Made by a program: the position numbers and the translations under genes. A stretch of DNA of 64,000 nt from Moorella sp. E308F (GTDB lineage: Bacteria > Bacillota > DSM-521 > Neomoorellales > Neomoorellaceae): contig NZ_BJKN01000002.1 of NCBI RefSeq assembly GCF_006538365.1, positions 647,119 through 711,118 on the forward strand. The letters are read 5' to 3'. Of the stretch, positions 11,731-53,755 are shown one piece after another. The first letter of the stretch is position 1; every line of letters starts with the position of its first letter. The notes beneath the pieces were generated by a model, which had not been told where the DNA came from, ran no database searches, and saw only the letters and a list, made by a program, of their open reading frames with translations.

Positions 11731-12108
11731 TTACTCTTTTGTCCTGCTTTTTAAATACTCGAGAAAGATTGTTGCTGTGGCCAGATTGGTGGCCGCCGGC
11801 ACGTTGTGGACGTCACAAATGCGCAAAAGAGCGCTGATATCCGGTTCATGGGGCTGGGGCGTCAGCGGGTCCCTCAGGAAAATTACCAGGTCCAGGCGTT
11901 TTTTGGCCACCAGGGAACCCATTTGCTGGTCTCCCCCCAGGGGCCCGGACATAAGACGGTGGACCTTGAGGCCGGTGCGTTCCATGATCCTGGCACCTGT
12001 AGTTCCCGTGGCTACCAGCCGGTGGTTGGCAAAGATATGTTTATGCTGGTCGACAAAATTGACCAGATCGTCTTTCATGCGGTCGTGGGCTATGAGGGCG
12101 ATGCGCAT
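11731..12108 (-). CDS. mgsA: Methylglyoxal synthase
   Basis: This 125-residue enzyme converts dihydroxyacetone phosphate to methylglyoxal and phosphate, a bypass that relieves sugar-phosphate build-up. Family motifs run the full length: [33 protein letters not shown] with the catalytic Asp, and [15 protein letters not shown] with DVHNVP. ATG 12108 follows GGAGG by 7 bases; the TTG one codon earlier is less likely. The size fits the short bacterial form. An ATTCGC motif lies 45 bases upstream (12153-12158). Confidence 0.93.
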
Positions 12109-12207
12109 CAATTATCCTCCGTTTACAGTTTTTCGGGAAGTTAGATAAATATATTCGCTAAAAATGTATTTTTTCCTGTTGCTATACAAATATTTTGCTT
12201 TGTATTT

Positions 12208-12867
12208 CTATTGGTGAAGCTGCTGCCATAGTTCCGGTGGACAAAGGGATTTTATAGGAACTTCGGCATAACTCAAGCAGCCGGCGAAAGGAGTTGGTTC
12301 CCAGTCATGGCGGTGTACCCCTGTCGGTACCGCCGGTTGCAAAGAAAGCCAGTAACGCACCAGTTCATCTTCCCCGCGGTTGACAATGGTTTCCCGTAAA
12401 ATCCTGGCCCGACGGGTGAGGGGGCAGCAAAAATAGGTACGACAAATAAGGGGCCGGTATTTGTACAGGCGGCACCGACGACGGTAAGGTTCTAAAAAAA
12501 TACAGTAACCTTCGGCGTCAGTCCGCAAAGTAATATCTACCACCCGCCCTTTCACCCGGACCTGGCAGTACTCCTCCAATATTTCTGGCAGGGAGAATAT
12601 TTTACCAGTAAGCTCCTCCAGTCCCTGTTGCAATACCTGCAGATCAATGCTGGTCAGGGGCAGACGCCCGCCACAGCAATGATCACAACCCAGACAATCG
12701 CCGTTAGTATAGGGGCGGTAAAGGAGGGATGGGTCAAGTCCTTCCACGGCGGTAATATAATCAGCTATGTTGGCCTCAGGAGATAAAACCCGGAGATCAT
12801 ACCCTAGCTTGCCATTGACCTGCCAGTAACGCACCTGGACGGGGTTCTGTTCTTGCCTTGCGAGCAA
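12208..12867 (-). CDS. YkgJ-type Cys-rich (zinc/iron-chelating) domain protein
   Basis: This 219-residue protein belongs to the CxxCxxCC-type family. The N-terminal half holds CLGCDHCCGG and the middle holds CRLYKYRPLICRTYFCCP, the two cysteine clusters typical of these putative metal- or Fe-S-binding proteins. The start is uncertain: TTG 12867 lies 7 bases after AGGAGG and is preferred, whereas TTG 12885 begins before that ribosome site. It follows hydF by about 25 bases in the same orientation, so it may be co-transcribed. The function of the family is not established. Confidence 0.7.
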   Translation of the reverse strand: MLARQEQNPVQVRYWQVNGKLGYDLRVLSPEANIADYITAVEGLDPSLLYRPYTNGDCLGCDHCCGGRLPLTSIDLQVLQQGLEELTGKIFSLPEILEEYCQVRVKGRVVDITLRTDAEGYCIFLEPYRRRCRLYKYRPLICRTYFCCPLTRRARILRETIVNRGEDELVRYWLSLQPAVPTGVHRHDWEPTPFAGCLSYAEVPIKSLCPPELWQQLHQ

Positions 12868-12892
12868 ATGACAACCTCCTGCCAATTATATT

Positions 12893-14113
12893 TTACTCTT
12901 CTTCCCGCCATGCCATCAGGGCCAGGGGGAAGGGTTCCAGGGCCCGTTCCAGGACGCCGTGGATAAAGGCCAGGAGGACGCCGTAATTAACTATTGGTAC
13001 GCCGGCTTCCTTGGCCAGCTGGATGCGGTAGAGCATTTCCCGGCGGTTGATCATGCAGCCGCCGCAGTGAATTATCACCTTGTAACTGGCCACATCTTCC
13101 GGGTAGCCAGTACCGGAATACCAGGAAAACTGCAAATCACCACCCACGTACTGGCGCAGCCAGCGGGGTATCTGCACTTTACCGATGTCATCAGCCTGGC
13201 GGTGATGGGTGCAGGCCTCGGCGATGAGAACCCTGTCTCCGGCCTGCAAATTTTTAACAGCCTTCGCGCCCCGCACCAACTCCACCAGGTCCCCTTTATA
13301 GCGGGCAAATAAAATGGAAAAGGAAGTCATCCAGATGCCGGGCGGCGTGTCGGCCGCTACCTTCAGGAAGGCCTGGGAATCGGTAATAACAATCTTGGGG
13401 GGCGGGATCTTCGCCAGAGCCAGCTTCAGTTCCCGCTCCTTGACCACCAGGCCCATGGCGTCATGATCCAGCAAGTCCCGCAGTGTCTGTACCTGGGGCA
13501 GAATCAGCCGCCCTTTCGGTGCCGCCAGGTCGATGGGTACCACCAGGACGGCCATTTCTCCGGGCCCCACCAGGTCGGCAACAATATAAGGCTCCTCAAA
13601 GTCGGCAGGAGCGGCTTTAATCAGCTCCCCTTTCAACTCTTCGATCCCCTGGCGGGTCAGGGCGCTGACCGGCAGGACCCGCTGTCCCAGGGTTTTTTCC
13701 AGGTCCGGCAATAGTTCCCGGCCGCCCTGGTCGATTTTATTTAAAACTATCACCAGGGGCAGGTTTTGTTCCTTTAGTCGCTGCAAGAGTTCCAGTTCGT
13801 AAGGTCCAACTCCGGCTGCCGGGTCCAGGACCAGGATGGCCAGATCAGTGCGCCGCAGGACTTCCATGGTCTTTTTGATCCTTAAAGCACCCAGTTCGCC
13901 CACGTCGTCAATCCCGGCCGTGTCGATGAGCACGACGGGACCCAGGGGTAAAATTTCCATGGATTTAAGGACTGGGTCTGTTGTTGTGCCTGGAATGCTG
14001 GAGACTACAGCCAGTTCCTGGTTGGTCAGGGCGTTGATTAAACTGGACTTGCCGGCGTTGCGGCGGCCAAAGATAGCAATATGCAGGCGGTTCCCCCTTG
14101 GTGTTGCTTCCAC
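12893..14113 (-). CDS. hydF: [FeFe]-hydrogenase H-cluster maturation GTPase HydF
   Basis: This 406-residue GTPase is the scaffold on which the di-iron subcluster of [FeFe]-hydrogenase is assembled before transfer to HydA. The P-loop GRRNAGKS lies at residues 16-23 and DTAG is the G3 motif. C-terminal ligands for its own [4Fe-4S] cluster are present in ACTHHR and IHCGGCM, the diagnostic HydF CxHHx(n)HCxxC set. GTG 14113 is chosen because GGAGG lies 10 bases upstream and the resulting length matches other HydF proteins; the frame extends upstream to 14155. No hydE or hydG lies in the window. Confidence 0.93.
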   Translation of the reverse strand: MEATPRGNRLHIAIFGRRNAGKSSLINALTNQELAVVSSIPGTTTDPVLKSMEILPLGPVVLIDTAGIDDVGELGALRIKKTMEVLRRTDLAILVLDPAAGVGPYELELLQRLKEQNLPLVIVLNKIDQGGRELLPDLEKTLGQRVLPVSALTRQGIEELKGELIKAAPADFEEPYIVADLVGPGEMAVLVVPIDLAAPKGRLILPQVQTLRDLLDHDAMGLVVKERELKLALAKIPPPKIVITDSQAFLKVAADTPPGIWMTSFSILFARYKGDLVELVRGAKAVKNLQAGDRVLIAEACTHHRQADDIGKVQIPRWLRQYVGGDLQFSWYSGTGYPEDVASYKVIIHCGGCMINRREMLYRIQLAKEAGVPIVNYGVLLAFIHGVLERALEPFPLALMAWREEE

Positions 14114-14195
14114 AGCTGCTTCACCTCCACGTAAAGCAAAGCTTCGCTCCAACAAAAAACGCTTTACTGGTGCTGGCCCCGGAAATTTTCCCAGT

Positions 14196-14219
14196 AAAAA
14201 ACGGGAGTTTATCTCCCGT
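14196..14219 (-). terminator. Terminator of the tat transcript
   Basis: On the minus strand the perfect stem ACGGGAG / CTCCCGT with a 5-base loop is followed by six T, 15 bases after the tatA stop. It separates tatA from hydF. Confidence 0.85.
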
Positions 14220-14233
14220 AGCTTACCACTTTT

Positions 14234-14455
14234 TTAACTGATCTGTTTAGTGGCTTTCTCTTTACTGGCATTGCTGTCGCCTTCGTCTATTTTGACCGCT
14301 TCTTTGATTTCCTCAGTTACGGAATTGGTAGCATTCTTAAATTCCCTGATACCCTTTCCCAGGGCGCGACCTACCTCGGGCAGCTTGCCGGGGCCAAAAA
14401 TAATCAACGCCAGCACTAAAATCAAGATTAATTCAGGAGCTCCCAAACCGAACAT
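14234..14455 (-). CDS. tatA: Twin-arginine translocase TatA/TatE subunit
   Basis: This 73-residue membrane protein forms the Tat pore that exports folded proteins. It has a single N-terminal membrane helix ([14 protein letters not shown]), the [17 protein letters not shown] hinge and amphipathic helix, and a charged tail. ATG 14455 lies 8 bases after AGGAGG, while GTG 14464 overlaps that site. It follows tatC by 47 bases in the same direction, giving the minimal TatAC system usual in Firmicutes. Confidence 0.95.
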
Positions 14456-14502
14456 CCTTCTCACCTCCTGTTAAGATTATTGTACACCTGTTTCTTTTAA
14501 AT

Positions 14503-15246
14503 TTAAATACCTTCTTCCTTGGCCTTTTCTTCCCGCCTTCGTCGTACCAGGTAAGAAATCCAGATGCTAACTTCATAAAGGGCAATTACCGGTAAAGCCA
14601 TTAGCGTTTGGGAAATCATATCCGGCGTAGGGGTAAGAATGGCCGCCAGTATAAAGATAATTAAGACAGCATATTTACGGTTTTTAGCCAGAAATCGGGG
14701 TGTTATCAAGCCTAGATGGGTGAGAAGCATAATAACCAGGGGCAACTGGAAGACGGCCCCGAAGGGTAAAATAAACATGGTCAAGAAACTAAAATATCGG
14801 GAGATGGAAATCAGTGGCGTAAAGCCTTCACTGGCACTTACTAGTAAAAAATGAATGGCTGCCGGGAAAACTACCAGGTAACCAAAAACTATTCCCCCGG
14901 CAAAGAGCACTATTGATGCCGGCATTAACATATAAATCAGCCGCCGTTCATGGCTGTGCAGGGCTGGCAGGACAAAGCTCCACACTTCCCAGAGAATCAC
15001 CGGTAGAGCTAGGAAGATAGCTGCCACGAAGGAAATTTTAATCGTCGTGAAAAAGGCCTCCCAGGGAGTGATAAAGACCGGGTTTATGCCTAGTTCCTTA
15101 ATTGGTCGCAAGATTAAAACCAGCAGCTGGCCCCGGAAGCCAAAATAAACAGCGATAGTTGCGATCACTAAAGCAATAATAGACACCAGCAGTACCCTGC
15201 GCAAAGCTTCCAGGTGTTCCGTCAGGGTCATAGACTTATCTTCCAC
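14503..15246 (-). CDS. tatC: Twin-arginine translocase TatC
   Basis: This 247-residue, six-helix membrane protein is the receptor for twin-arginine signal peptides. The N-terminal MTLTEHLEALRRVLL motif, an early Phe-rich segment (FITPWEAFFTTIKISF), and the FGYLVVFPAAIHFLL and ILTPTPDMISQTLMALPV segments are characteristic. GTG 15246 is preferred because GGAGG lies 7 bases upstream; ATG at the SMTLTEH position is the alternative. It lies in a run of minus-strand genes from the prenyl-synthase-like gene through menG to tatA. Confidence 0.95.
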   Translation of the reverse strand: MEDKSMTLTEHLEALRRVLLVSIIALVIATIAVYFGFRGQLLVLILRPIKELGINPVFITPWEAFFTTIKISFVAAIFLALPVILWEVWSFVLPALHSHERRLIYMLMPASIVLFAGGIVFGYLVVFPAAIHFLLVSASEGFTPLISISRYFSFLTMFILPFGAVFQLPLVIMLLTHLGLITPRFLAKNRKYAVLIIFILAAILTPTPDMISQTLMALPVIALYEVSIWISYLVRRRREEKAKEEGI

Positions 15247-15314
15247 CGCTCCACCTCCTTTTAACCCTTTTATGGTTAGTTTCATTATACTGCCGTTATC
15301 ATAGCAGGGCAACA

Positions 15315-16016
15315 TTATTTCTTTATACCCACATGGACGGCTACAATGCCGCCCGTCAGCTCGTGATAACTTGCCCTGTCCAGGCCCAGGTCACGGAAGT
15401 ATTGCAATATTTCTTCCTGGTGGGGATAGCCCTTAAGGGAACGGGGCAGATAACTATAGGGGCCATCCATTCCCACCCCAAGGCGACCTATTAAAGGCAC
15501 CAGGTGGTCAAAGTACAGGTAGTAAATATGCTTAAAAATGGTTCGAGAAGGTTTGGCTAATTCCAGGGAAACCACCCGTCCTCCCGGCCGTACCACCCGC
15601 CTCATTTCCGCCAGGCCCCGTTTGATATCAGGGAGGTTGCGCAGGCCAAAGGCAATGGTGGCGCAATCAAAAGTATTATCCGGGAAGGGAAGATCCATGG
15701 CATTACCTTCTACCAGCTGTACCAAATGGCCGTAGGGACTGGCTGCCAGGCGGCGACGGGCGACCTCAAGCATGCCCGGAGCAAAATCTAGCCCCACTAC
15801 CTGGCCGCCCGGGGCTACGGCCCGGGCCAGTTCCAAAGAGAGCATACCGGTGCCACAGCAGACATCCAGGGCCTTGTTCCCAGGTGCAAGACCTGCCCGG
15901 GCTACGGTAAAGCGGCGCCACCCCCGGTCGCAATTAAAACTTAGAATCGTATTTAACAGGTCGTAGCGGGGAGCAATGTTGTTAAAAATGCCACGTACAT
16001 ATTCCTCTTTGGTCAC
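15315..16016 (-). CDS. menG: Demethylmenaquinone methyltransferase (UbiE/MenG)
   Basis: This 233-residue SAM-dependent methyltransferase catalyses the last step of menaquinone synthesis. The family signature is clear: YVRGIFNNIAPRYDLLNTILS, the SAM loop LDVCCGTGMLSLELA, GLDFAPGML, and FDCATIAFGLRNLPD with RPGGRVVSLELAKP. It starts at GTG 16016, which overlaps the stop of the upstream prenyl-synthase-like gene in GTGA, implying translational coupling. Its presence suggests a menaquinone-based membrane redox chain in this anaerobe. Confidence 0.93.
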   Translation of the reverse strand: MTKEEYVRGIFNNIAPRYDLLNTILSFNCDRGWRRFTVARAGLAPGNKALDVCCGTGMLSLELARAVAPGGQVVGLDFAPGMLEVARRRLAASPYGHLVQLVEGNAMDLPFPDNTFDCATIAFGLRNLPDIKRGLAEMRRVVRPGGRVVSLELAKPSRTIFKHIYYLYFDHLVPLIGRLGVGMDGPYSYLPRSLKGYPHQEEILQYFRDLGLDRASYHELTGGIVAVHVGIKK

Positions 16017-16693
16017 AGGGCCATCACCCGTTCGACAGGCAGCTCTTCGCTTAATTGAATAACCAGTTCACCAAGGAGCTCCCTTACTGTTCCGGGAGCA
16101 AGTTTTTCTACGGCCTGGCTGGCTTTTACGGTTACTGGTTGGCCATTCCACAGCTTGCCTAAAAGTAAGCCTATCTCCTGCCACGCCTGAGCCAACCAGG
16201 GTTCGGCCCGACCTAACTGGCTACCCAGGGAAGTCGCCGCGGCAGCCAGGTATTCCCGCATGCGAAAACTTTTGGATGAAGATGGTTTTTCGTGTTGCCG
16301 GGCCGCATCCAGGTGTATCTGGCAAATCAATTGGGAAAGGGGTGCCAAAAATTGCAGATTACCATCGCGACAGAGGAGATCAAAAAAACGGGTGTAGAAA
16401 TAATCTCCTACCAGGGTTTCCAGAGCTACCTCATCCTTAACATTGTTATGAATCAATGAGGCCAGGAAAATAAATTGAAATACGGCAGCCAGAGAAAGCG
16501 CCCTGGAGCCAGAGTAACCCTGGGTATGGGCGCTCAAAAGAACTAGAGCAGGTAGAAAATCTTGATCTAAATGGTTCAAAACAGGCCAGGTGACCCCGGG
16601 TAACCTTCGCCCTTGCAAGCGAGTTTCCCTTAGCAAGCGATGGCGAACCATTTCTAGCTCTGGTTGTAATAGTTTAAACAGGGCGGTCAACAT
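16013..16693 (-). CDS. Polyprenyl-synthase-like protein lacking the first Asp-rich motif
   Basis: This 226-residue protein shares the layout of trans-prenyl diphosphate synthases around residues 70-105 (AVFQFIFLASLIHNNVKDE, then LVGDYFYTRFF), matching the usual LIHDDVxDD and LAGDYLLARAF blocks. The catalytic DDxxD is replaced by NNVKD, and about ten residues including the RRGxPT loop are missing; the second Asp-rich motif is not seen either. It is shorter than the roughly 320 residues of active synthases. Overlap with menG suggests a menaquinone side-chain role, perhaps as a non-catalytic partner. The ATG follows AGGAGGG. Family membership is an inference. Confidence 0.6.
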   Translation of the reverse strand: MLTALFKLLQPELEMVRHRLLRETRLQGRRLPGVTWPVLNHLDQDFLPALVLLSAHTQGYSGSRALSLAAVFQFIFLASLIHNNVKDEVALETLVGDYFYTRFFDLLCRDGNLQFLAPLSQLICQIHLDAARQHEKPSSSKSFRMREYLAAAATSLGSQLGRAEPWLAQAWQEIGLLLGKLWNGQPVTVKASQAVEKLAPGTVRELLGELVIQLSEELPVERVMAL

Positions 16694-16774
16694 CCAGCCC
16701 TCCTAAATATAAAAATAAGTATTCCATTTGATATTCTATTCTTTAAAGCATATTCCTGCTGGTTATTTGAACGC

Positions 16775-16818
16775 AAAAACGCCACAGGCCCTGCAAGTTT
16801 TCTCCCTGCAAGGCCTGT
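16775..16818 (-). terminator. Terminator of speH
   Basis: A stem of ACAGGCC pairs with GGCCTGT, extended by CTGCA/TGCA, in 16784-16818, and is followed on the minus strand by GGCGTTTTTGCG. It lies about 55 bases past the speH stop. Confidence 0.6.
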
Positions 16819-16873
16819 CAGCTCCTACCCTCACTACTACCTTTACATGTAGGTAATAAAATAAATATCCCTC

Positions 16874-17251
16874 CTACAGATTTACCGCTGCCGCCCGAGG
16901 AGGTTCCATTACGCCCCGTTCAATTTCGGTGGCGTGGACTTCGCCTGCTTGGAACTGCTCGGTTAAGTACCTGCAGGCATCCCAGGGATTTACCCTTTCA
17001 CCACAGGTAAAAACATCAACGGCAGCATACCCTAACTCCGGCCATGTGTGGATTGCCAGGTGCGATTCGGAGATGACCACCACGCCGCTGACACCCTGAG
17101 GGCTGAATTTATGGAAGCAGACTTCCCGGATTTCGGCACCGGCCTCCAAAGCAGCTTTAACCATGATTTCTTCGACCTTTTTGATGTCGTTTAAGATCTC
17201 GAAGCTGCATCCATAAACCTCAGCTAAAACATGACGGCCCAATGCGCGCAA
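16874..17251 (-). CDS. speH: S-adenosylmethionine decarboxylase proenzyme
   Basis: This 125-residue class 1B AdoMet decarboxylase provides the aminopropyl donor for spermidine synthesis. Self-cleavage between E62 and S63 in VVVISESHLAIHTWPE would produce the pyruvoyl cofactor. FTCG with the catalytic Cys83 and the early GRHVLAEVYGC are present. It starts at TTG 17251, 8 bases after GGAGGAGG; ATGs in the leader are out of frame. No spermidine synthase gene is adjacent. A thermophile would be expected to use such polyamines. Confidence 0.95.
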   Translation of the reverse strand: MRALGRHVLAEVYGCSFEILNDIKKVEEIMVKAALEAGAEIREVCFHKFSPQGVSGVVVISESHLAIHTWPELGYAAVDVFTCGERVNPWDACRYLTEQFQAGEVHATEIERGVMEPPRAAAVNL

Positions 17252-17385
17252 TTATCATTCCTCCTCCAGAATAAAAGTGGAGCATGACATCAATCAAATC
17301 CAATTGTAACCCCACTCCCCCTTATTGTCAACTAAAAATCGCAGCAGATGTCGGATAAAGTTGAGGGCTTGTCTTTAGAGGCTAT

Positions 17386-17420
17386 AAGAAGCGGCCTGGT
17401 ACCAAACCATGCCGCTTCTT
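17386..17420 (-). terminator. Hairpin downstream of gnd
   Basis: A perfect 10-bp stem AAGAAGCGGC / GCCGCTTCTT with a 15-base loop lies 14 bases after the 6-phosphogluconate dehydrogenase stop. The following bases are only moderately U-rich. Confidence 0.6.
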
Positions 17421-17434
17421 AGCCTTTTAGCCCT

Positions 17435-18334
17435 TCAATATTTCCGGGCCACCTCGTGGCCGCCGAACTCGTGGCGCAGGGCGGCCACCACCTTGGTGGC
17501 GAAGCTCTCCTCCTGCTCGGAGCGGTAGCGCATCAGCAAGGCTGCCGTGATTACCGGCGCCGGTACCTTCAGATGCAGGGCTTCCTCCACTGTCCAGAGG
17601 CCCTCACCGGATGAATAAGCGATATCTTTTATGCTTTCCAGAGTAGCGTCTTTGCTAAGGGCACTTTCCATGAGGTCCATTAGCCAGCCGCGGATTACCG
17701 AACCATGGCGCCAGACCCCGGCCACCGCCCTGAGATCCAGTTTAAAGGGCCCTTTAGCCAGGACTTCCATCCCCTCGCCGATGGCCTGCATCATGCCGTA
17801 TTCGATGCCGTTATGGACCATTTTAACATAGTGGCCGCTGCCGGGGGGGCCGGTGTGCAGGTAGCCCCCGGGAACGGTTATATCCTTAAACAAAGGCTCC
17901 AGATAGGTAAAGAGCTCATCTTCGGCTCCCACCATACAGCAGGCGCCATAGCGAGCTCCCTCTATACCGCCGCTAGTACCGGAATCGGCGAAGCGAATAC
18001 CCTTTTCCTTTAAAAATTGATAACGGCGTAAAGTATCCCGGTAATGAGAATTACCCCCGTCGATGATAATATCGCCGGGAGCAAGCAGGGGTAATAGCTG
18101 TTCAATAACCTCGTCCACGGCTTTGCCGGCAGGGATCATTAACCAGATAAGGCGGGGAGATACCAACTCGCCTACCAGCTCTTCCAGGCTGAAAGCACCT
18201 TTAATCCCACGGGCGGCGGCCTTTTCCACTGTCGACCTCGTGCGGGCGTACCCTATCACTTCGTGACCATGATCCAGCATATTGAGGGCCAGGTTGAGGC
18301 CCATTTTGCCTAAGCCTATTAAGCCGATTTGCAA
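17435..18334 (-). CDS. gnd: 6-phosphogluconate dehydrogenase, decarboxylating (short YqeC/GndA type)
   Basis: This 299-residue enzyme oxidises and decarboxylates 6-phosphogluconate to ribulose 5-phosphate. The N-terminal Rossmann motif is MQIGLIGLGKMGLNLALNM, and the family blocks IIDGGNSHYRDT, ADSGTSGGIEGARYGACCMVG and VKMVHNGIEYGMMQAIGEGMEVL are present. The short form is often NAD-dependent, unlike the roughly 470-residue NADP enzyme; cofactor choice here is an inference. It lies at the downstream end of the sugar-acid locus, behind the gluconokinase-like kinase and a URO-D-family gene, so 6-phosphogluconate may come from that kinase. Confidence 0.93.
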   Translation of the reverse strand: MQIGLIGLGKMGLNLALNMLDHGHEVIGYARTRSTVEKAAARGIKGAFSLEELVGELVSPRLIWLMIPAGKAVDEVIEQLLPLLAPGDIIIDGGNSHYRDTLRRYQFLKEKGIRFADSGTSGGIEGARYGACCMVGAEDELFTYLEPLFKDITVPGGYLHTGPPGSGHYVKMVHNGIEYGMMQAIGEGMEVLAKGPFKLDLRAVAGVWRHGSVIRGWLMDLMESALSKDATLESIKDIAYSSGEGLWTVEEALHLKVPAPVITAALLMRYRSEQEESFATKVVAALRHEFGGHEVARKY

Positions 18335-18438
18335 AAATAAATCCCCCTTTAGTCACACGGAGAAAAAATATTACTGTGGCCTTGTCTTAGTATTATAATT
18401 TACCAGCCTCATAATCCATCCTCCCCTGCCACTCCCGC

Positions 18439-19509
18439 CTATAACGGGTAACGATTCTCCCTGGCTACCCGAATCATAGTACGGACGTTTACCTGGGGGG
18501 TGTAATAAGCCAGTTCGCAGCCGGAACCGAGGATAAACCCACCACCCTTGCCGGCTAAATCGATACACCGCTGGGCTTCTTTTGCTACCTCATCCGGCGT
18601 TCCTCGTAACAGTAATTCAGATGGATCGAGGTTACCCATTAAGCATACCCGATCGCCTACGACAGCCTTGGCTCTGCCCAAATCAACCTTATAGTCAAGC
18701 TCTAAAATCATGGCTCCAGTATCCGCCATCAAAGGTAAAACCGGTGTCATATCGCCGCATACATGAAGAAGTGTGATAACCTGCCGGTCTTTATGACAGA
18801 TATTAAGGGCATTAAAGAATTTTTTCTCATAGGGAAAGGCCCATTCCTTATACATTTTAGGTGAAATAACATCGATAGAAGCCAGGGAATCACCGGCCTG
18901 GACAATGTCGGCACCTGCTTCCACCTGTGCTTTGGCGAAGGCAATTAATGCATCGCTGGTCAGCTCTAATAAATGCCGTAAAGCCCTGGCATTTTTTCCT
19001 TCAGGTTCGGTGGCAGCCATTGCTAACTCCATCAAGAAGCGCTGGGTACCCATTAAATGTGACGCCAGGGAAAAAGGGCCGGTACCCGTTCCCCTGATGG
19101 CGACTTTACCACCCACCTGTTCTTTGATCAAATCAATGGCCTCAAGGTAAACAGGCATTCGTCCATCTTTATAAGGGTCAGGTACTCTAAGCTTATAAAC
19201 ATCTTGAAGTTCATGAACCACAGGTTCCCTCAAAGTGGGTGTAGAATCCTCATGCATATCCACGGTAATACCGAAGCCTTCAGCAATATAGTAGTTGTCC
19301 GATTGGGCGACAATAATATCCTGCTGATAAATTTCCCAGGCCTTCAGTTGTGCTTTCGCCATTATTCTACCGTTGGTGCAGTATTGAGATATTAAAGCCC
19401 CGCCTACCTTTGCCCCGTGGTTACCCATATAAGGTCCAACTGGTACGACATCGGGTTCCATCCTATTGGCAGCGGCACGTACCCTTTCAAGTGAAGTCAT
19501 ATTAGGCAT
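18439..19509 (-). CDS. Uroporphyrinogen decarboxylase family protein (MtaA/CmuA-like)
   Basis: This 356-residue protein of the URO-D superfamily has HVCGDMTP near residue 250 and ILGSGCELAYYTP near the C-terminus, the His/Cys zinc-binding pattern of corrinoid- and methyl-transferring members such as MtaA rather than of true haem-pathway UROD. The segment RGTGTGPFSLASHLMG is also typical. It starts four bases after the stop of the FGGY kinase and is clearly in that operon. Such genes are seen beside catabolic genes of anaerobes, but the reaction is unknown. A second, divergent URO-D-family gene lies at 29155-30240. Confidence 0.8.
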   Translation of the reverse strand: MPNMTSLERVRAAANRMEPDVVPVGPYMGNHGAKVGGALISQYCTNGRIMAKAQLKAWEIYQQDIIVAQSDNYYIAEGFGITVDMHEDSTPTLREPVVHELQDVYKLRVPDPYKDGRMPVYLEAIDLIKEQVGGKVAIRGTGTGPFSLASHLMGTQRFLMELAMAATEPEGKNARALRHLLELTSDALIAFAKAQVEAGADIVQAGDSLASIDVISPKMYKEWAFPYEKKFFNALNICHKDRQVITLLHVCGDMTPVLPLMADTGAMILELDYKVDLGRAKAVVGDRVCLMGNLDPSELLLRGTPDEVAKEAQRCIDLAGKGGGFILGSGCELAYYTPQVNVRTMIRVARENRYPL

Positions 19510-19512
19510 TCT

Positions 19513-21036
19513 TTACACCCCAAGAGAAGTAAAGTCTTTCTCTATTTTTCTACAGATACGTTGGTAAATATCAAAAAGAACACGGTATTTATTGGTGTTT
19601 AGCCAATAGGGGTCAAATTGCTTCGCTTTTTGTAAGAACTGATAAATGATGTTGATATCGCTTGCTTGTCCTGTGGCAACCATCCCAAGGACCGCTGCCC
19701 CGAGGCAAGCACCTTCAATACCTGGATATACTATTACTTCTTGTCCCAAAATGTCTGCCAGTATTTGACACCATAATGACGAGCGAGTGAAACCGCCGGT
19801 GGCACGAACTTCTTTAAACGGTCCACTTAACTCCTGCAAGGCCAGGGCAACGCTGTAAAGGCTGAAACAAACTCCTTCCATTGTAGCCCGAGCCAGGTGT
19901 TCCCGGCCGTGGTGGAGGGCCAGGCCAACAATAATGCCCCGGAAGCTGTCATTCCACCACGGTGCTCTTTCTCCTGTGAGGAAGGGCAGAAAAATAAGGC
20001 CATCACTGCCTGGTGGTATACTGGCTGCACAAGAATTCATTAAATCATAAACTTCCCCCTTTCCCTCAAGTGCAGCTCTTACTTCAGCCTGAAAAAACTT
20101 ATCCCGCAGCCAGCGGTAAACCAATCCACCGTTATTGATGGGCCCGCCGATAATCCAATCTTTGTCCGTCAGGGCATAACAAAAAGTTCGCATGCCGGGA
20201 TCAGTTATGGGTTTATCAACATGGACTCTTACGGCACCACTGGTACCAATTGATATAGCTGCTATCCCCGGTTTAATGGCGCCGACACCAAGGTTGGCCA
20301 GGGTCCCGTCGCTGGCACCAATTATAAAGGGGGTTTCCGGTTTCAGGCCCATGGCTGCCGCATCTCCTGCCTTAAGACCCCGGAGAATGTAAGTCGGCGG
20401 TACAGGTTGGGAAAGCTGTTGATGGCTGATACCTGACAGCCGCAGAGCATCTTTATCCCAGGTGAGCTTGTATAAATTAAAAAGACCAGTTGCTGATGCT
20501 AAAGAATAATCAATAACGTATGTCCCAAAAAGCCTGAAAAAAATATACTCCTTAATTGAAATAAATCTAGTGCTCTTCTGGAAAATTTCGGCCATATTCT
20601 CTCGTAACCAAATTAGCTTGCATAGAGGAACCATAGCATGATAGGGTACACCACAACAACGATATAACTCTTTTCCCTTTGGATCTTGGCGTAGTCTTTG
20701 GGCAATAGTTGCACTGCGGTTGTCCGCCCATATCCAGCAATTAGTTAAGGGGTTACCTTTTGCATCCACAGGCATAATACCGTGCATGGCCGAACTGAAG
20801 GCTACCCCGTCAATTTCGCTGGCTCTGGCGCCGGCCTTCCTAACAGCCGTCCCTATTACTTCCAGTGTATCCTGAAAAATTTTTTCGGCATCCTGTTCTG
20901 CCCAGCCGGGTTGGGGTTGTTCAAAACCGCTTTCTTTTGCGTAGTACCCACGGACTTGTCCCTGCTTATCCAAAACTACAGCTTTTGTTGTAGTTGTTCC
21001 CAGATCAACACCAATAAACAGTCCGCTTCCGGTCAT
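19513..21036 (-). CDS. gntK: FGGY-family carbohydrate kinase, gluconokinase-like
   Basis: This 507-residue kinase has the N-terminal phosphate loop FIGVDLGTTTTKAV, VAFSSAMHGIMPVD typical of FGGY gluconokinases, the substrate loop NCWIWADNRS, SIGTSGAVR, and the ATP-side motif GGFTRSSLWCQILADILGQEV. It would phosphorylate a sugar or sugar acid, most simply gluconate, feeding the 6-phosphogluconate dehydrogenase two genes downstream. The ATG follows GAGGAG. Its promoter carries a 15-bp near-palindrome shared with the rpiR promoter and with a kinase remnant at 30234-30440. Xylulose or another pentose is the alternative substrate. Confidence 0.85.
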   Translation of the reverse strand: MTGSGLFIGVDLGTTTTKAVVLDKQGQVRGYYAKESGFEQPQPGWAEQDAEKIFQDTLEVIGTAVRKAGARASEIDGVAFSSAMHGIMPVDAKGNPLTNCWIWADNRSATIAQRLRQDPKGKELYRCCGVPYHAMVPLCKLIWLRENMAEIFQKSTRFISIKEYIFFRLFGTYVIDYSLASATGLFNLYKLTWDKDALRLSGISHQQLSQPVPPTYILRGLKAGDAAAMGLKPETPFIIGASDGTLANLGVGAIKPGIAAISIGTSGAVRVHVDKPITDPGMRTFCYALTDKDWIIGGPINNGGLVYRWLRDKFFQAEVRAALEGKGEVYDLMNSCAASIPPGSDGLIFLPFLTGERAPWWNDSFRGIIVGLALHHGREHLARATMEGVCFSLYSVALALQELSGPFKEVRATGGFTRSSLWCQILADILGQEVIVYPGIEGACLGAAVLGMVATGQASDINIIYQFLQKAKQFDPYWLNTNKYRVLFDIYQRICRKIEKDFTSLGV

Positions 21037-41916: not shown

Positions 41917-43251
41917 CTAAAATTTCGTCAGGTACTGGTCGATCTCCCACTGGTGTACCCTGGTACGATATTGTTCACATTCGAGTTTCTGGGCCAGGGT
42001 CAGGCGCTCATAGATATGGGGTCCCAGAGCTTCCTTGATAACCTCATCTTCTGCTAGGGCTTCCAGGGCTTCATCAAGGCTTCCCGGCAGGACGCCGATG
42101 CCTTCCGCCTGGAGTTCGGCCGGGGTCATGGCAAAGATATTTTTATCCGTCGGCGGCGGCGGGGTCAGGCCTTTTTTAATTCCATCCAGCCCGGCCTTCA
42201 GCAGTACGGCCAGGGCCAGGTAGGGGTTGCAGGAAGGATCCGGGTGTCGCACTTCAATGCGGGTGGAAGGACCGCGTTTGGCCGGCACACGGATCAAGGG
42301 GCTGCGGTTGCGCGGCGACCAGGCGATATAGACCGGCGCTTCATAACCGGGAACCAGGCGTTTATAAGAATTGACCGTCGGGTTGGTTACGGCCGCCAGG
42401 GCGCGGGCGTGAGCCATGACGCCGGCGATAAACTGGTAAGCGGTCTGGCTTAAGCCCAGCCTGTCGTCGGGGTCGTAAAAGGCGTTCTGGCCGTCTTTTG
42501 ACAGGGAGATATTAACGTGCATACCCGAACCGTTAATGCCGTAAATGGGCTTGGGCATGAAGGTGGCATGGAGGCCGTGACGCTGGGCGATGGTCCGCAC
42601 CACGAATTTGAACGTGGCAATGCGGTCAGCCGTGGTCAGGGCCTCGGCGTATTTAAAGTCAATCTCATGCTGGCCGGGAGCCACCTCATGATGGGAAGCC
42701 TCGATTTCAAAACCCATCTGCTCCAGGGTCAGGACCATGTCCCGGCGGGCGTCCTCCCCCAGGTCCACCGGGGTAAGGTCAAAGTAACCGGCCCGGTCGT
42801 GGGTTTCCAGGGTCGGCCGGCCGGAGGCGTCGGTATGGAAAAGGAAGAATTCAGCTTCCGGCCCGGCGTTCATGGTAAAACCCATAGCGGCCGCTTCGGC
42901 CATAACCTTCTTCAAGGTACAGCGGGGACAACCGGCAAAGGGCGTACCATCGGGGTTATATACGTCGCAAATGAGGCGGGCTACCGTCCCCTCATGGGGC
43001 CGCCAGGGGAAAACAACAAAGGTGTCTGGGTCAGGGCGCAGGTACATATCCGACTCTTCAATACGCACAAAGCCTTCAATGGAAGAGCCGTCAAACATGA
43101 GTTCATTGTTGAGGGCCTTGGGCAACTGGTCCACCGGAATGGCTACATTTTTCAATACCCCAAAAATATCGGTAAACTGGAGGCGAACAAATTTTACCCC
43201 CCATTCTTCAGCCCGGTTTAGGACAGCCGCCCGTTTTTCCTTGTCATCCAT
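41917..43251 (-). CDS. glnA: Glutamine synthetase type I
   Basis: This 444-residue enzyme makes glutamine from glutamate, ammonia and ATP. Motifs in order: [23 protein letters not shown], metal-binding [30 protein letters not shown]-site [56 protein letters not shown] and [19 protein letters not shown]. It lacks the adenylylation-site region of longer GS forms, as is usual in Firmicutes. ATG 43251 lies 9 bases after AGGAGG, while ATG 43257 is too close. A conserved partner glnA lies at the window end. Confidence 0.96.
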
Positions 43252-43278
43252 CAGCATAAACCTCCTGCTAAATTGATA

Positions 43279-43306
43279 GAAGTGAGAGGTGAGAAGTGGG
43301 AAGTGG
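43279..43306. repeat. Four-unit heptamer array 5' of glnA
   Basis: Four consecutive 7-mers, GAAGTGA, GAGGTGA, GAAGTGG and GAAGTGG, lie in the glnA leader. They share the consensus GARGTGR with the array at 41885-41912. Confidence 0.8.
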
Positions 43307-43316
43307 GATCTTCTAT

Positions 43317-43339
43317 AGAAACTGGCTACGCCAGTTTCT
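43317..43339 (-). promoter_or_regulatory. Perfect hairpin in the glnA leader
   Basis: A 10-bp perfect inverted repeat, AGAAACTGGC / GCCAGTTTCT with a 3-base loop, lies between the terminator and the heptamer array in the glnA leader. It may be part of an ANTAR-controlled leader RNA, but the usual pair of six-base-loop hairpins was not recognised. Confidence 0.4.
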
Positions 43340-43343
43340 TTAT

Positions 43344-43393
43344 AAAAAGCGTCCTGCAAGAAAAGGGCATAAAAACCCTCTCCTTCAGGACGC
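43344..43393 (-). terminator. Terminator between the ANTAR gene and glnA, possible attenuator
   Basis: The stem GCGTCCTG / CAGGACGC with an inner AGGG/CCCT pairing is followed on the minus strand by TTTTTAT. It lies 16 bases past the ANTAR gene stop and upstream of glnA in the same direction, so it either ends the regulator transcript or is a control point read through when ANTAR protein is active. Confidence 0.8.
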
Positions 43394-43408
43394 CGTTGCC
43401 CTAAAGGG

Positions 43409-44017
43409 TTAGTCCGTCTTTTTGGCCTTATTGCTGCCACCCTGGAGTTCATGGGCGACAATAATGGCTTCCGCGATGCTTTTCATGGGAACGCAGCGAT
43501 CCATACTCTGGCGCTGCATGCGCCGGTAGGCCTCGGCTTCCGTTAACCCCATGGTATCCATGAGAATGCCCTTGGCCCGCTCAATTATTTTCCGCGCCGC
43601 CAGGGTCTCCTTCAGCTTGCTGATTTCCTGCTGCAGGCGGCATATTTTCTGGTAATTGGCCAGGGCTGCTTCTACCGCCGGCAACAGGGTGCTTTCCTGG
43701 ACCGGTTTAATTAAATAAGCAAAGATTGGAAAATCACGCGTACGGGCAAGCAGATTGCGGTGCCAGGAAGAGGCTAGGAGGATAATTGGTGCTACCCCAT
43801 CTTCCTCGATTATCCTGGCTACTTCCAGGGCATTGGTACCCTGGAGTTCGCTATCTAGAATTATCAGGCTGGGCTGCAGGGTGCGGATCATCCGCAGGGC
43901 CTGGCTGCCGTCCGGGGCTTCGCCGGCAATCAAGTAACCTTCCCGAACCAGCATGTACTTCAAGTTTTGCCGGGCAGACGGGTCGGCACTGGCGATAAAA
44001 ATTTTGGGCTGCTGCAT
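43409..44017 (-). CDS. Response regulator with ANTAR RNA-binding domain
   Basis: This 202-residue protein has an N-terminal receiver domain ([64 protein letters not shown]), a coiled-coil segment and a C-terminal ANTAR domain ([53 protein letters not shown]). ANTAR proteins act as transcription antiterminators on leader RNAs. Its position just upstream of glnA, with a terminator between, suggests nitrogen control of glnA and the glutamate synthase genes. ATG 44017 is chosen by AGGG spacing; upstream starts are possible. Confidence 0.9.
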
Positions 44018-45627: not shown

Positions 45628-45719
45628 CTCTTTTTCCTCCCCCTCTCGAGGGAGATTTTATCACATGGTGGTTCAGTTTTATTTGACGATCTGGGGTCAA
45701 TTCTATTTTACGATCTACA
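44824..45719 (-). mobile_element. Partial IS21-family insertion sequence
   Basis: The istA-proximal end is intact: on the minus strand TGTAGATCGTAAAATAG (45719 inward) is followed by a second copy of the ATCGT.AAATA motif, the multiple end repeats expected for IS21. The element entered the reading frame of the older hsdR fragment, which is cut at 45720. The other end and istB are missing. Confidence 0.75.
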
Positions 45720-46485
45720 CGCCTCCGGGTGGGGACTCACGAGCGCAAACGCCTTGGTTAACTCGGTGCAGGCTTTCAGGAAGCGGCTCTTTGTTTCGTC
45801 ATCCGCCACCACCGCGTTATGCGCCCGCTGCAGGAGTCGCGTGAGCTCCGCCGACGCCAGCCGCCGCCACCCCTGGTAATCAATCCCGTGGAAGAAGGCA
45901 CAGGTGATATCGTACTTCTCCCGCAACACCGCAATCGCCTGGTCCAAGGGGATCATCGCCTCGTTGCGGTCTTTCTCGGTGTAGCAGGCCAGCGCTTTTT
46001 TGAGGTCGTCGGCGATCCCGATGTAGTCCACGATCAGCCCGCCCGGCTTGTCCTTGAAAACGCGGTTCACCCGGGCGATCGCCTGCATCAGGTTGTGGCC
46101 CTTCATCGGCTTATCAACGTACATCGTGTGCAGGCAGGGGTTGTCAAAACCGGTGAGCCACATATCCCGGACGATCACTAACTTCAAAGGGTCGTCGGGG
46201 TCCCGGAAGCGCTTCTTCAGTTCCTCCTGCTTGGCCTTGCTCCGGATGTGCGGATGGTAATCCTCCGGGTCACTCGCCGAGCCGGTCATCACCACCGCCA
46301 CCTCGGGACAACCTGGTAGCTCCCGGAGATACTTGTAAAACTTAACGCAGATGTGCCGGCTCATGTAGAAGACCATGGCTTTACCGTTTAAAGCCTTCAG
46401 CCGCCTTTCGAAGTGGAGCACGGCGTCGCGCAGCTGCCGGGCTAAGCCGCCGATTAAGTCGTACTGGCTACCTCGCGCTGCCAGG
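45720..46485 (-). pseudogene. Internal fragment of a second type I restriction subunit (older hsdR)
   Basis: A frame beginning about 46485 ([27 protein letters not shown]) runs through [80 protein letters not shown], the second helicase domain of an HsdR, and is cut by the IS21 end at 45720. It is not similar in wording to the intact HsdR beyond shared helicase motifs. Its 5' half is missing, with the intact hsdR 3' end fused to it; the two frames overlap at 46468-46485. Confidence 0.88.
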
Positions 46486-49400
46486 CTCGCTGTAGGTCAG
46501 TGCGAATACCGTATCGGTCAACCAGCGACGGAACGACTCATTGTCGCTGAACTGCTTGAACAGCTCAGTGTCATCCTTGAGCAGCGCAGTCATCACCCGA
46601 ACGAGGGCCTTGTCGTGCTCGATGCGTGCGTTTTGTTTGTCAGAATGCTTGCGTGCATTCTGGTAGGCGGTGTCGGCCGCTACTCGTGCAGGAATCTCCT
46701 CGGTGATCAGTTTGCGCACCCGATCGGCGTCGGTCCAGGGAATGTTGCCGAACTGATCGTTAAAAGCCTTGATGATGTTCGAGAGACGGTCGAGCTCCGG
46801 TTCGGGCTTGTGTCCACCACCCACAGCGGGCACCGGTTCGATTTCGGCATCCGCATCGGAAAGCGCGATACTCATGCTCGCCTGCTTTTCGACCCGGTAG
46901 CTGTCCATGTCGATCGCCTCGAGGATGCCCTTTGAGAGGTCTTCCTCTTTCGGCGCCGGCAGCTTGGGTACCAGGAAGTTAAGGAAGATCGATAGCTTCT
47001 CCCACTCGGCGTTAGTGTAGGGGAGGATTGAAGACAGAAAGTTATAGGTTCGCAAAAACGCCTTGGCTTTGCCCTTGAAGTCGACCTGACCGTCCTCGTC
47101 GAGATGCTCCATGTAGGTGGCGACGCAGGCGTCGAGGATCGGGTCGAGCTGGTCACGGTCGGCCCCGCTCAGGTAGAGCCGCACCAGTTCATCAACTTGC
47201 TCAGGCGCGTACACCTGGTAGCCGTCAAGGTCGGCTTTAAGGTCGTGCAGCTTGTTCGGGTCGGTCTCGTCGGCGAGGATGGTCGTCCGGTAGTAGGGCT
47301 CGAAGGCCTTCCGGATCGTCTCCGGATCGTTGACGAAATCGAGGACGAATGTGTCGTGCTTCTGGGGGTGGGCGCGATTGAGGCGCGAAAGTGTCTGCAC
47401 CGCCTTGACCCCGGATAGCACCTTGTCCACGTACATTGTGTGCAGGAGCGGCTCGTCATAGCCGGTCTGGAACTTATCGGCGCAGATCAAAAACCGATAC
47501 GGGTCCTCCCGGATCTTGTCAGCGATCTGGTTCGAGGGAAAGCCGTTAAGGCTGGCCTCGGTGACCTGTTGACCGCCATACTCGTGCTCACCCGAGAAGG
47601 CCACAATCGCCCGATAGGGGCTTTTGCGCTCCGCAAGGTACGCCTTAAAGGCATGGAAGTACTGAATAGCTCGCTCGATGCTGCCGGTCACCACCATGGC
47701 CCGCGCCTGACCGCCGATCTTGCCCTTGGCGATCACCTGCTCATGAAAGTGGTCCACCATGATCTCGGCCTTGAGCCGGATGGCGTACTCGTGCCCCTCG
47801 ACGAAGCGGCGCAGCTTCTTCTGCGCCTTTTTGACGTCGAATTCGGGGTCGTCCTCGATGGTCTTGATGAGCCTGTAGTAGCTCTTCACCGGCGTGTAGT
47901 TGGCCAGCACATCCAGGATGAACCCTTCCTGGATGGCCTGTTTCATGGTGTAACTGTGGAACGGGCGATGCTTCACCGTGCCGTCGGGCTGCGGGTCGGG
48001 TTCACCAAACATCTCCAACGTTTTGTTCTTAGGGGTGGCGGTGAAGGCGAAGTAGCTGGCGTTCGGCAAAAGCTTCCGGGCCTCCATGAGCCGGTTGATC
48101 TGGTCTTCGAAGGTCTCGTCTTCGTCCTCGGCACCGGCCTCCGACAAGGCCATGCTCATCTTGGCCGAGGTGCGGCCGCCCTGACTCGAGTGCGCCTCGT
48201 CGATGATGATCGCAAAACGGCGCCCGCGGTGCTCGTTGCCGATTTCGTCGAGGATGAACGGGAACTTCTGAAGCGTCGTAATTATGATTTTCTTGCCGCC
48301 CTCGATGAAGCGCCGAAGGTCGCCGGAATGCTCGGCGTGCCCCACCGTGGCGCTCACCTGGGCAAACTGTTTGACCGTGTCCCGGATCTGCTGGTCCAGG
48401 ATGCGCCGGTCTGTCACCACGATAATGGAATCGAAAACGGGTCTTCCGTCCTTCGCGAGACCGATTAGCTGGTGGGCCAGCCAGGCGATGGAGTTGGACT
48501 TGCCGCTGCCGGCGGAATGTTGGATAAGGTAGCGCCGGCCCACGCCGTGTGCCGCCGCGTCCGCCAAGAGTTTTCGCACCACGTCGAGCTGGTGATAGCG
48601 GGGGAAGATCTGCCGTCGCCGTTTCTTGCCGGTCTTGAGGTCTTTTTCCTCAACGAGTTGAGCGTAGTTTTCGAGGATGTCGGTCAGGCTCTCACGGGTG
48701 AGTATCTCCCGCCACAGGTAATCGGTCTTGAGCCCCTGCGGATTGGGAGGATTGCCCGCGCCGTCGTTCCATCCCTTATTGAAGGGCAGAAACCACGACG
48801 CCTTGCCCGCAAGGTGCGTGCAGAACCACACCTCGTTTTCGTCCACGGCGAAGTGCGCCACACACCGCCCCAATTCAAATAGCTTTTCGCGCGGGTTGCG
48901 GTCACGCTTGTACTGCTCGATGGCATCGTGCACCGTCTGTTTGGTGAGGCGGTTCTTGAGCTCGAAAGTGAAAACCGGCAGGCCGTTGATGAAGAGCACC
49001 AGGTCCAGCGCCCGCTGCGTCTCATCGCGGCTGTAGCGGAGCTGGCGCGTGACGGTAAAGCGGTTCTGCTCATAGAGTGCCCGCGCTTGCTCGTTTCCAG
49101 GCGAAGGAGTGCCGTAGAAAAGCTCGATGCGGTGCTGCCCGTGCTGAATCCCATTGCGCAATACGTCCACCACCCCGCGCTTGCTCACCTCGCCCTGGAG
49201 CCGCGCCAGAAACTTCCGCCGTGTGGGGCTGTCGTTATCCAGATCGAGCGCTTCGGCAACCTCCGGTTGCGTCGAACGCAGAAAGGCCGTAAGCTGAACC
49301 AGATCGACGCAGTACTCCCGGTCGTAATCGGCCGGATCGCCAGGGAGCCAACCCACACCGCCGTAGGGTGCCGGCGTCTCGGCAACGAACGCCGGAGTGC

Positions 49401-49488
49401 CGGCAGGTCGAGGTACGCAGTCGCTGCCAGTCAGCGCCCGGCAGATAAGAGTTTCAAGCCCGGCTTCGCTGGTGTCGGTTGGTTTCAT
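46468..49488 (-). CDS. hsdR: Type I restriction endonuclease subunit R
   Basis: This 1006-residue motor and nuclease subunit cuts unmethylated DNA after ATP-driven translocation. The PD-(D/E)xK nuclease lies near residues 162-178 ([19 protein letters not shown]), helicase motif I at 324-331 (HSAGSGKS), DEAH at 430-433 (IIIDEAHSS), motif III in FAFTATPKN, and later [25 protein letters not shown]. The N-terminal 150 residues are a family-specific extension. The ATG overlaps the hsdS stop by four bases. The frame is intact. The stop lies at the junction with the older hsdR fragment. Confidence 0.95.
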
Positions 49489-50927
49489 GGTTCAACTTCC
49501 TCCTCAGAGAAAGTTTCTGCAGCGGCCTCATTATCTGCCGCCTCACCTTCCGCTGTCTCCTCTGTGTCCTCCAACTCAGCTTCCTCCTCAGCTGGCTCCT
49601 CTGGCAGCCGCGCCGCGACCTCGCGCACATCCACCTTGCCGGTGACGACGTCGGAAATGAGGCGGGTGCGGTATTCGCGCAGGAGTTCGATTTCGCGGCG
49701 AGCGGCAGCAATGGCAGCGTCGATCTTGGTCGTCTGGGCGTCGAGGTACTCCACGATGGCGGATTGTTCGGGGAGGGGAGGAAGGGGAAACAGCATTGCC
49801 CCGACGAACGTCCAATCGGCCCGGGGCATCTTGGCACCGTAAGTCGAGCTGTTTACAAAATCAATAGCTGGTGCCGATCGCAGAACCACCTCTAGATAGT
49901 GGGGTGCAACAACGGGCCTTGCGCGCAAAACAAAAAACTCACCAACGCAGACGCCACTCTGTTTGGGACGAACAACCTTAGCAAGATATGGCCTGAGCTT
50001 TCCGAAAAGAACATCTCCAGCTCGGAAGCGCTTCACTTGACTGTCAAATTGTGCTTCTCCGGATGGCACCAGAAGGCGACCTGTCCAACTCTCAACGTGC
50101 TCCAATGCTATGTAGAGATCCTCATCGTTCTTGGTACTCGTCTGCTCGTTAATATGATCGACTACCGTTTTCAGCCGCCGCACCTCCCAATGCTCCGGCA
50201 CCTCGCCCAGCCACTCCACGCCCGAGTCCTTGTACGCCGGGTAGGGCTGGCCGGTGCGGACGTCGATCTTGCCGGTGACGGCCTGGTGGATGAGGGTCTG
50301 CTTGTACTCCTCCAGAAGTTTGACCAGTTTCTGCTTGGCTCGAATATATCGCCGAATCCGCCGGTCCATGTAATCGAGAAAGCGGACGATGGCGGTTTGT
50401 TCATCGGGTGAAGGGATCGGGATGTACAGGGCACCAAACTTCTCCCTTGTAAAGTGCGCGATTGTAGCCTTGTTGGTAAGAGCGTCAAACCAACCGGTTG
50501 TCGCAATAACGCTCATGACATACTGCAAGTAGTCGTTCCGACAATGATCACGTGGGCGAACACGATGCAGTGCATTCTGAATAATGAATCCCTCTGGTAT
50601 TTCTTTCACAATTCCGCAACGCCCTCCTTCACCCCCTTCGCATACAAGAAGATCGCCAGCAGTGATACCAAATTGTTGGATATCTCGTGGACTGGCCCAC
50701 ATCCTTGGTGCATCTGATGTTCTCACCGAAAACCACTGAATATGTTGTGCCTTAAGATAAGGAACCTCAATATCGTCTGGGCTATTCGGTCTTGTTTGCA
50801 GCATTTTTCCAAGTTGAATGTCGTAATGACGCTTTACCGGCTTGACCTCCCAATGCACCGGCACCTTGCCAAGCCAGGGCACGCCGGAGCCTTTATAGGC
50901 GGCGTAGGGGGTCAGGGTGCGTATCAT
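49485..50927 (-). CDS. hsdS: Type I restriction-modification specificity subunit S
   Basis: This 480-residue subunit chooses the bipartite recognition site. It has two target-recognition domains, each introduced by the same phrase (YAAYKGSGVPWLGKVPVHWEV near residue 8 and YPAYKDSGVEWLGEVPEHWEV near residue 235) and each closed by a coiled-coil spacer (PDEQTAIVRFLDYMDRRIRRYIRAKQKLVKLLEEYKQTLI; LPEQSAIVEYLDAQTTKIDAAIAAARREIELLREYRTRLI). The last 50 residues are very acidic (Glu/Ala-rich) and are not usual for HsdS. It overlaps both neighbours by four bases. Confidence 0.94.
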   Translation of the reverse strand: MIRTLTPYAAYKGSGVPWLGKVPVHWEVKPVKRHYDIQLGKMLQTRPNSPDDIEVPYLKAQHIQWFSVRTSDAPRMWASPRDIQQFGITAGDLLVCEGGEGGRCGIVKEIPEGFIIQNALHRVRPRDHCRNDYLQYVMSVIATTGWFDALTNKATIAHFTREKFGALYIPIPSPDEQTAIVRFLDYMDRRIRRYIRAKQKLVKLLEEYKQTLIHQAVTGKIDVRTGQPYPAYKDSGVEWLGEVPEHWEVRRLKTVVDHINEQTSTKNDEDLYIALEHVESWTGRLLVPSGEAQFDSQVKRFRAGDVLFGKLRPYLAKVVRPKQSGVCVGEFFVLRARPVVAPHYLEVVLRSAPAIDFVNSSTYGAKMPRADWTFVGAMLFPLPPLPEQSAIVEYLDAQTTKIDAAIAAARREIELLREYRTRLISDVVTGKVDVREVAARLPEEPAEEEAELEDTEETAEGEAADNEAAAETFSEEEVEP

Positions 50928-53754: not shown

Positions 53755-53755
53755 G

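Follow-up and report, generated by a model that had tools for sequence, protein, structure and literature searches.

The window (the whole stretch of 64,000 nucleotides of Moorella sp. E308F DNA that was analysed) carries a run of minus-strand genes in the order speD, hepS-like gene, menG, tatC, tatA and then hydF. The second gene of this run, which was named above cut-off by no Pfam or NCBIfam model, is the one considered here. The features referred to below, in window coordinates except for the last, are:

16874..17251, minus strand: speD (adenosylmethionine decarboxylase; TIGR03330 above cut-off), the upstream neighbour in relatives too
16784..16818, minus strand: terminator-like hairpin (stem of 14 pairs) in the speD/hepS-like intergenic region
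16699..16704, minus strand: Shine-Dalgarno-like sequence AGGAGG, 5 nt 5' of the hepS-like ATG
16013..16693, minus strand: hepS-like gene (226 aa), encoding a putative non-catalytic homologue of trans-prenyl diphosphate synthases that is proposed to be a small subunit
16433..16447, minus strand: degenerate first Asp-rich motif NNVKD (residues 83-87; DDxxD in catalytic relatives), preceded by H82
16385..16408, minus strand: retained GDYFYTRF block (residues 96-103)
16013..16016, minus strand: GTGA, where the stop codon of the hepS-like gene overlaps the start codon of menG
15315..16016, minus strand: menG (UbiE/MenG demethylmenaquinone methyltransferase, 233 aa; PF01209 E 4e-71; NF001244 and TIGR01934 above cut-offs)
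14503..15315, minus strand: tatC, the next gene of the run, with a one-base overlap with menG
14234..14464, minus strand: tatA, with a terminator-like hairpin downstream of it (14201-14219)
G000:C2:642579-643547, outside the window, same strand as the hepS-like gene: HepT-type synthase (PF00348 match 642729-643460), 19.7 kb downstream

Gene neighbourhood and selective constraint

The preliminary description, made from the letters of the sequence, had read 16013-16693 as an open reading frame overlapping menG by GTGA; the sequence agrees, with stop TGA and start GTG sharing these four positions. Hairpin sites such as the two listed were no more numerous in the region than in shuffles, and Rfam gave no match in 12000-19600 at gathering thresholds.

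Within the genus, menG adjoins the hepS-like gene in 10 of the 10 genomes that have the latter (L007-L016). Outside the genus menG is sometimes located elsewhere; in two genomes (G016 and G017) the hepS-like gene stands directly 5' of tatC. An in-frame fusion of a hepS-like protein with MenG, 524 aa long, is present at L032:376-1950 (the same as L091:4504-6078), in a genome, G032, that has a second PF01209 match elsewhere.

We also saw speD upstream of the hepS-like gene, on the same strand and within ~2 kb, in carriers from 11 families; the linkage has no functional explanation known to us. One genome (G053) has two hepS-like copies (L085:3098-3922 and L086:3899-4651), and in the stretches read speD and menG stand beside the first copy only.

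The protein is 83% identical to the M. stamsii and M. mulderi copies (tblastn) and 59% (tblastn) to 61% (amino acid identity) identical to the M. thermoacetica copy; identities to M. thermoacetica are 83% for menG and 95% for speD. In comparisons with two Moorella species the dN/dS ratio of the hepS-like gene was 0.20 and 0.18, i.e. purifying selection; the same comparisons gave 0.10 and 0.07 for menG. The hepS-like gene is the fastest evolver among the five neighbouring genes compared; it is constrained nonetheless. One could take the rapid evolution as a sign of a decaying, non-functional prenyl-synthase paralogue. However, with these dN/dS values, with a family present in 31 of 61 genomes that retains invariant residues (see below) and with no internal stops within the listed family matches, we rejected the pseudogene reading, which we regard as scarcely credible.

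Predicted fold and catalytic motifs of the hepS-like protein

The likeness of the translation of 16013-16693 to prenyl synthases, suggested in the preliminary description, proved to be above chance. A phmmer search of PDB with the single protein found the octaprenyl-diphosphate synthase 4jxn_A at E 8.9e-9; a profile of the 25-member hepS-like family reached the same structure at E 5.2e-29. The profile also found both chains of the Bacillus subtilis enzyme, HepT (9kp1_B) at E 1.5e-19 and HepS (9kp1_A) at E 6.4e-8; the latter chain was not reached by the single protein in the phmmer search of PDB. When the family was compared by hhalign with 11 classic HepS sequences, the probability was 96.3 over 70 columns around GDYF (the hhalign E-value of this comparison applies to one pair only).

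The Pfam model PF00348 (polyprenyl_synt) scored 18 bits on the hepS-like protein (E 0.0017), below the gathering cut-off of 27 bits, and PF07307 (HEPPP_synt_1, the HepS model) had no match to it at E up to 1, nor at the gathering cut-off. At E <= 0.1, PF07307 matched 8 of the 25 family members (best 2.6e-6) and PF00348 matched 16; in the genome search the PF07307 cut-off was passed in one of the 61 genomes. The tree placed classic HepS neither with nor apart from the hepS-like family (HepS end branch 8.7; SH-aLRT of the hepS-like clade 76%). Judged by sequence comparison, the similarity of the family to characterised HepS is weak but consistent.

The AlphaFold2 model of the protein is all-helical (pLDDT 91.6, pTM 0.90) and prenyl-synthase-like, so that the terpenoid-synthase type of fold expected from the preliminary description is indeed the predicted one. 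Foldseek matched the model to the polyprenyl synthase 3wjn_B (E 8.2e-7). VIA gave 3oyr_A with Z 24.2 (rmsd 2.4 A, 215 residues), HepT 9kp1_B with Z 19.9, 3qkc_A with Z 20.5, and the mint chains 3kra_B and 3oab_B, which we take to be the small subunit, with Z 20.5-20.9. Of the solved structures listed, those nearest to the model are polyprenyl synthases; the best 50 fold matches did not include the HepS chain 9kp1_A, a result with no weight against kinship. The model has a shortened prenyl-synthase fold over nearly its whole length, without an extra domain. As the match spans the N-terminus to the C-terminal helices of catalytic enzymes, the protein would seem to be a prenyl synthase from which the block around the second motif was removed. 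It has 226 aa as compared with 279-360 aa in 75 catalytic sequences, and the region of the second motif is missing.

Motifs were counted in 105 aligned sequences, made up of 75 catalytic synthases, 29 members of the hepS-like family and one classic HepS, the last two groups making up 30 non-catalytic rows. HDDx2D or HDDx4D was found in 75/75 catalytic and 0/30 non-catalytic rows, GKxxRP in 68/75 and 0/30, and DD at the second motif in 74/75 and 0/30; the GD of the GDY block was kept in 72/75 and 30/30, respectively. In the alignment LASLIHNNVKDE (residues 77-88) falls on the first Asp-rich motif of prenyl synthases and LVGDYFYTRFF (residues 94-104) on their GDY block, just as the preliminary description had it. 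It was also right about the RRGxPT loop: the segment in which catalytic synthases have it, C-terminal to DDxxD, is absent. Its NNxxD pattern does stand in for the first Asp-rich motif in this sequence; however, it is not a motif of the family, its positions varying within the genus, where several congeners have H, E or Q instead of the aspartate. The invariant columns of the 25 aligned family sequences are A69, H82, L94, G96 and D97; in the MenG-fused relative, which is outside this alignment, H82 is replaced by Q.

An active trans-prenyl diphosphate synthase requires two Asp-rich metal-binding motifs. Both are absent from the hepS-like protein and, as no DD, DxxD or DxxxD occurs anywhere in the chain, DDxxD is not restored at another position; we consider the protein non-catalytic because it has no DDxxD motifs. 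One could argue that other residues bind the metal, making the protein an active short prenyl synthase or a terpene synthase: the fold is the same, the GD block is kept and H82 nearly so, and a few distant members have acidic residues near the first motif (KDDSD, PDDGE, PDTH). Such activity is extremely unlikely, however, since HDD, an intact GKxxRP and the second DD are lost across the family (30/30 non-catalytic rows) and residues 83-87 vary within the genus.

Co-occurrence with a HepT-type synthase

The host genome has three PF00348 synthases: an IspA-type enzyme, one whose gene adjoins a YtpB-like DUF2600 gene, and one of the HepT type. The last is the likely catalytic partner, of the kind that the preliminary description had proposed to look for; it is located just beyond the window, before a siroheme/heme gene run (named from translations), and belongs to a different operon than the hepS-like gene. 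In the tree it falls into a 26-row clade (SH-aLRT 99) together with HepT of a classic PF07307-menG-hepT locus (L087). Of the 14 NCBIfam models listed for it, the best was TIGR02748 (HepT) with 355.6 bits, under the curated cut-off of 456.55; HepT of the classic locus, with 439.8 bits, is likewise under this cut-off. The second-best model for both proteins (264.9 bits for the HepT-type synthase) is the large subunit of hexaprenyl synthase. Both models describe catalytic halves of heteromeric enzymes. Three subfamily profiles applied to the 75 synthase rows separated 33 rows forming a HepT group, which scored 86 bits or more over the best rival profile, from 42 others (at most 43 bits); in this division 11 of the 33 HepT-group rows had been used to build the HepT profile and 27 of the 42 others to build the rival profiles.

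The synthase beside the DUF2600 gene (L003:219-2373, i.e. G000:C1:889555-891709) is arranged tail to tail with it, and in many other genomes PF00348 and PF10776 matches are found a few hundred bases apart, which suggests a dedicated synthase for a YtpB-type terpene. We also considered whether the prenyl chain associated with the hepS-like gene might be kept for YtpB (DUF2600). The idea did not hold up: the DUF2600 gene of G011, like that of the host genome, adjoins a different synthase. No DUF2600 match was found in 7 of the 32 carriers defined below (G013, G017, G027, G032, G053, G055 and G058), and five of these seven have menG.

We analysed co-occurrence in 61 genomes with a table compiled by hand, counting as a carrier any genome with a gene of the hepS-like family or, in one case (G042), with classic HepS; this definition raises the count from 31 to 32. 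A gene of the HepT clade is present in 31 of the 32 carriers and absent from 27 of the 29 non-carriers (31/1/2/27 for carriers with and without it and non-carriers with and without it; Fisher test 6.8e-14). With one genome per family, which is the sole treatment of shared ancestry in these tests, the table becomes 14/0/1/27 (p 2.8e-10). The remaining synthases of non-carriers were fetched later and scored; besides the known HepT of G037 (L184), none was HepT-like. The exceptions are G021, a genome in 590 contigs that has the hepS-like gene without a HepT-clade gene, and G007 and G037 (58% and 82% complete), which have HepT without the hepS-like gene.

Among the 31 genomes with both genes, the two were on the same contig in 20 (19 with a hepS-like gene, one with HepS) and on separate contigs in 11. 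In 20 of the 20 same-contig cases the subunit gene was upstream of hepT and on the same strand, at distances from 0.14 to 66 kb. The hepS-like gene is immediately 5' of hepT at one locus (L080); at another (L076) the order is speD, hepS-like gene, UbiD-like, UbiA-like, UbiX-like, hepT, tatC, with the UbiD and UbiX genes named from translations and UbiA also by PF01040.

The hepS-like gene also tracks menG (27/5/6/23, p 5.2e-7) and MqnA/D (21/11/4/25, p 3.8e-5), less tightly than it tracks the HepT clade. These numbers bear on the other role put forward in the preliminary description, that of a membrane adaptor for MenG; such an adaptor or scaffold would bind the prenylated quinone or MenG itself and take no part in a prenyl synthase. 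The overlap of the reading frames, the adjacency to menG throughout the genus and the fusion with MenG are what one would expect of it. However, five of the 32 carriers (G011, G013, G035, G048 and G055) have no PF01209 match at E <= 1e-40, six of the 29 non-carriers do have menG, and menG is elsewhere in G016 and G017; the predicted protein, moreover, consists nearly throughout of the prenyl-synthase fold, with no additional domain. Because the hepS-like gene follows hepT better than it follows menG, we rejected the adaptor, which is very unlikely.

The ring pathway varies among carriers. The host genome has one gene of the MqnA/D family and no MenB match, while three carriers (G011, G027 and G053) have MenB above cut-off and no MqnA/D match; MenB was sought in 14 genomes. 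With ring pathway and methylase both varying, it is the side-chain synthase that the hepS-like gene follows more tightly. For one carrier, G011, which has neither an MqnA/D nor a MenG match, we had entertained a hepS-like gene without any menaquinone pathway; this was dropped, since MenB above cut-off in this genome indicates a ring pathway that is different rather than absent.

The proposed small subunit and its known relatives

We conclude that the hepS-like gene very probably encodes a non-catalytic protein, HepS-like though divergent, that serves as the small subunit of a heteromeric trans-polyprenyl diphosphate synthase; its partner would be the HepT-type synthase ~20 kb downstream. A non-catalytic subunit of a heteromeric menaquinone side-chain synthase was the first of the roles offered in the preliminary description; the predicted fold, the loss of motifs in 29/29 family rows and the co-occurrence with HepT make it a very probable one.

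By analogy with characterised enzymes, we infer physical pairing of the two proteins, dependence of activity on this pairing, a role of the small subunit in the tunnel and the chain length. The hepS-like protein would keep the helical core and the dimer-forming helices, the metal- and IPP-binding residues being lost; it would pair with HepT, which would bind Mg2+, farnesyl-PP and IPP and perform the chemistry. The small subunit may stabilise HepT, line part of the elongation tunnel and set the product length. The product would probably be C35, leading to MK-7; a UbiA-type enzyme would join this chain with the ring, which would then be methylated by MenG, the product of the overlapping gene. 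As MenG scored 230 bits on the heptaprenyl-type model TIGR02752 (cut-off 420) and the partner is under the cut-off of its own heptaprenyl-specific model, C35 is not supported by these models and the chain may have another length.

One could speculate further that the small subunit docks the side-chain synthase to later quinone enzymes, the chain being handed on within the complex. We consider this unlikely; if true, a dead prenyl synthase would have nucleated a menaquinone-tail metabolon, of which the MenG fusion and the overlap of frames with menG would bear witness.

The closest known counterpart is HepS (PF07307; B. subtilis HepS/HepT, PDB 9kp1). Both are non-catalytic prenyl-synthase homologues without DDxxD, the HepS gene too is upstream of and adjoining menG (L087), and the partners belong to the same HepT clade. 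The hepS-like protein differs in being below PF07307 detection, in its length (226 aa versus 260-317 aa for PF07307 ORFs, counted from their first start codon) and in having no D of the DTH block, a residue invariant in the 11 HepS sequences aligned. Its gene, unlike that of HepS, frequently has speD as a linked gene and, in L076, genes of the futalosine-pathway type; the distance to hepT is often several kb to tens of kb.

HexA, of Micrococcus luteus HexA/HexB (PDB 3aqb), is smaller than the hepS-like protein and was not among the best 60 of 94 profile matches; the 3aqb chains listed in the profile and fold searches are B (the catalytic component) and D. The likeness is one of kind: HexA is a small subunit without catalytic activity that, together with its catalytic partner, is proposed to set chain length (PMC7839719, in excerpt). 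The small subunits of plant geranyl diphosphate synthases (3qkc; mint 3kra/3oab) also have the prenyl-synthase fold without catalytic Asp motifs and, according to the same excerpt, regulate a catalytic large subunit; they are, however, eukaryotic, with a short-chain product, and their likeness to the hepS-like protein is that of a common fold. Catalytic long-chain synthases (octaprenyl and decaprenyl, PF00348) provide the best sequence and fold matches; unlike them, the hepS-like protein has lost the catalytic motifs.

The role had been thought not described. This does not hold, as HepS of Bacillus and HexA of M. luteus are already known subunits of such a kind, going by excerpts of PMC7839719 and by the titles of PDB entries 9kp1 and 3aqb. 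In HepS/HepT, HexA/HexB and the plant enzymes alike, a small subunit without Asp motifs is required for activity or may determine chain length (PMC7839719, in excerpt). The kind is known, and the hepS-like family is most likely a divergent, unnamed branch of it that is outside PF07307 yet would work like HepS. Among the best-ranked papers listed, titles and abstract openings contained nothing on the hepS-like gene in Moorella. In the portions available, PMC8578096 lists Moorella species among those containing menaquinone, and PMC8578096 and PMC13040438 give a proposed use of menaquinone in energy conservation by acetogenic Moorella.

A probable function for a gene that models leave unnamed, together with a catalytic partner, would make the side-chain step of menaquinone synthesis in Moorella testable. 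The same assignment would extend heteromeric prenyl synthases with a dead subunit from families with PF07307 to more anaerobic Firmicutes, and it argues for caution in annotating hepT of such Firmicutes as a stand-alone enzyme.

Elsewhere in the window, going by translations only, we noted type I restriction-modification-like genes at 45708-54648, where longer ORFs are accompanied by shorter fragments on the same strand, and two glutamine-synthetase-like ORFs at 41917-43461 and 62898-63896, with ~20 kb between them.
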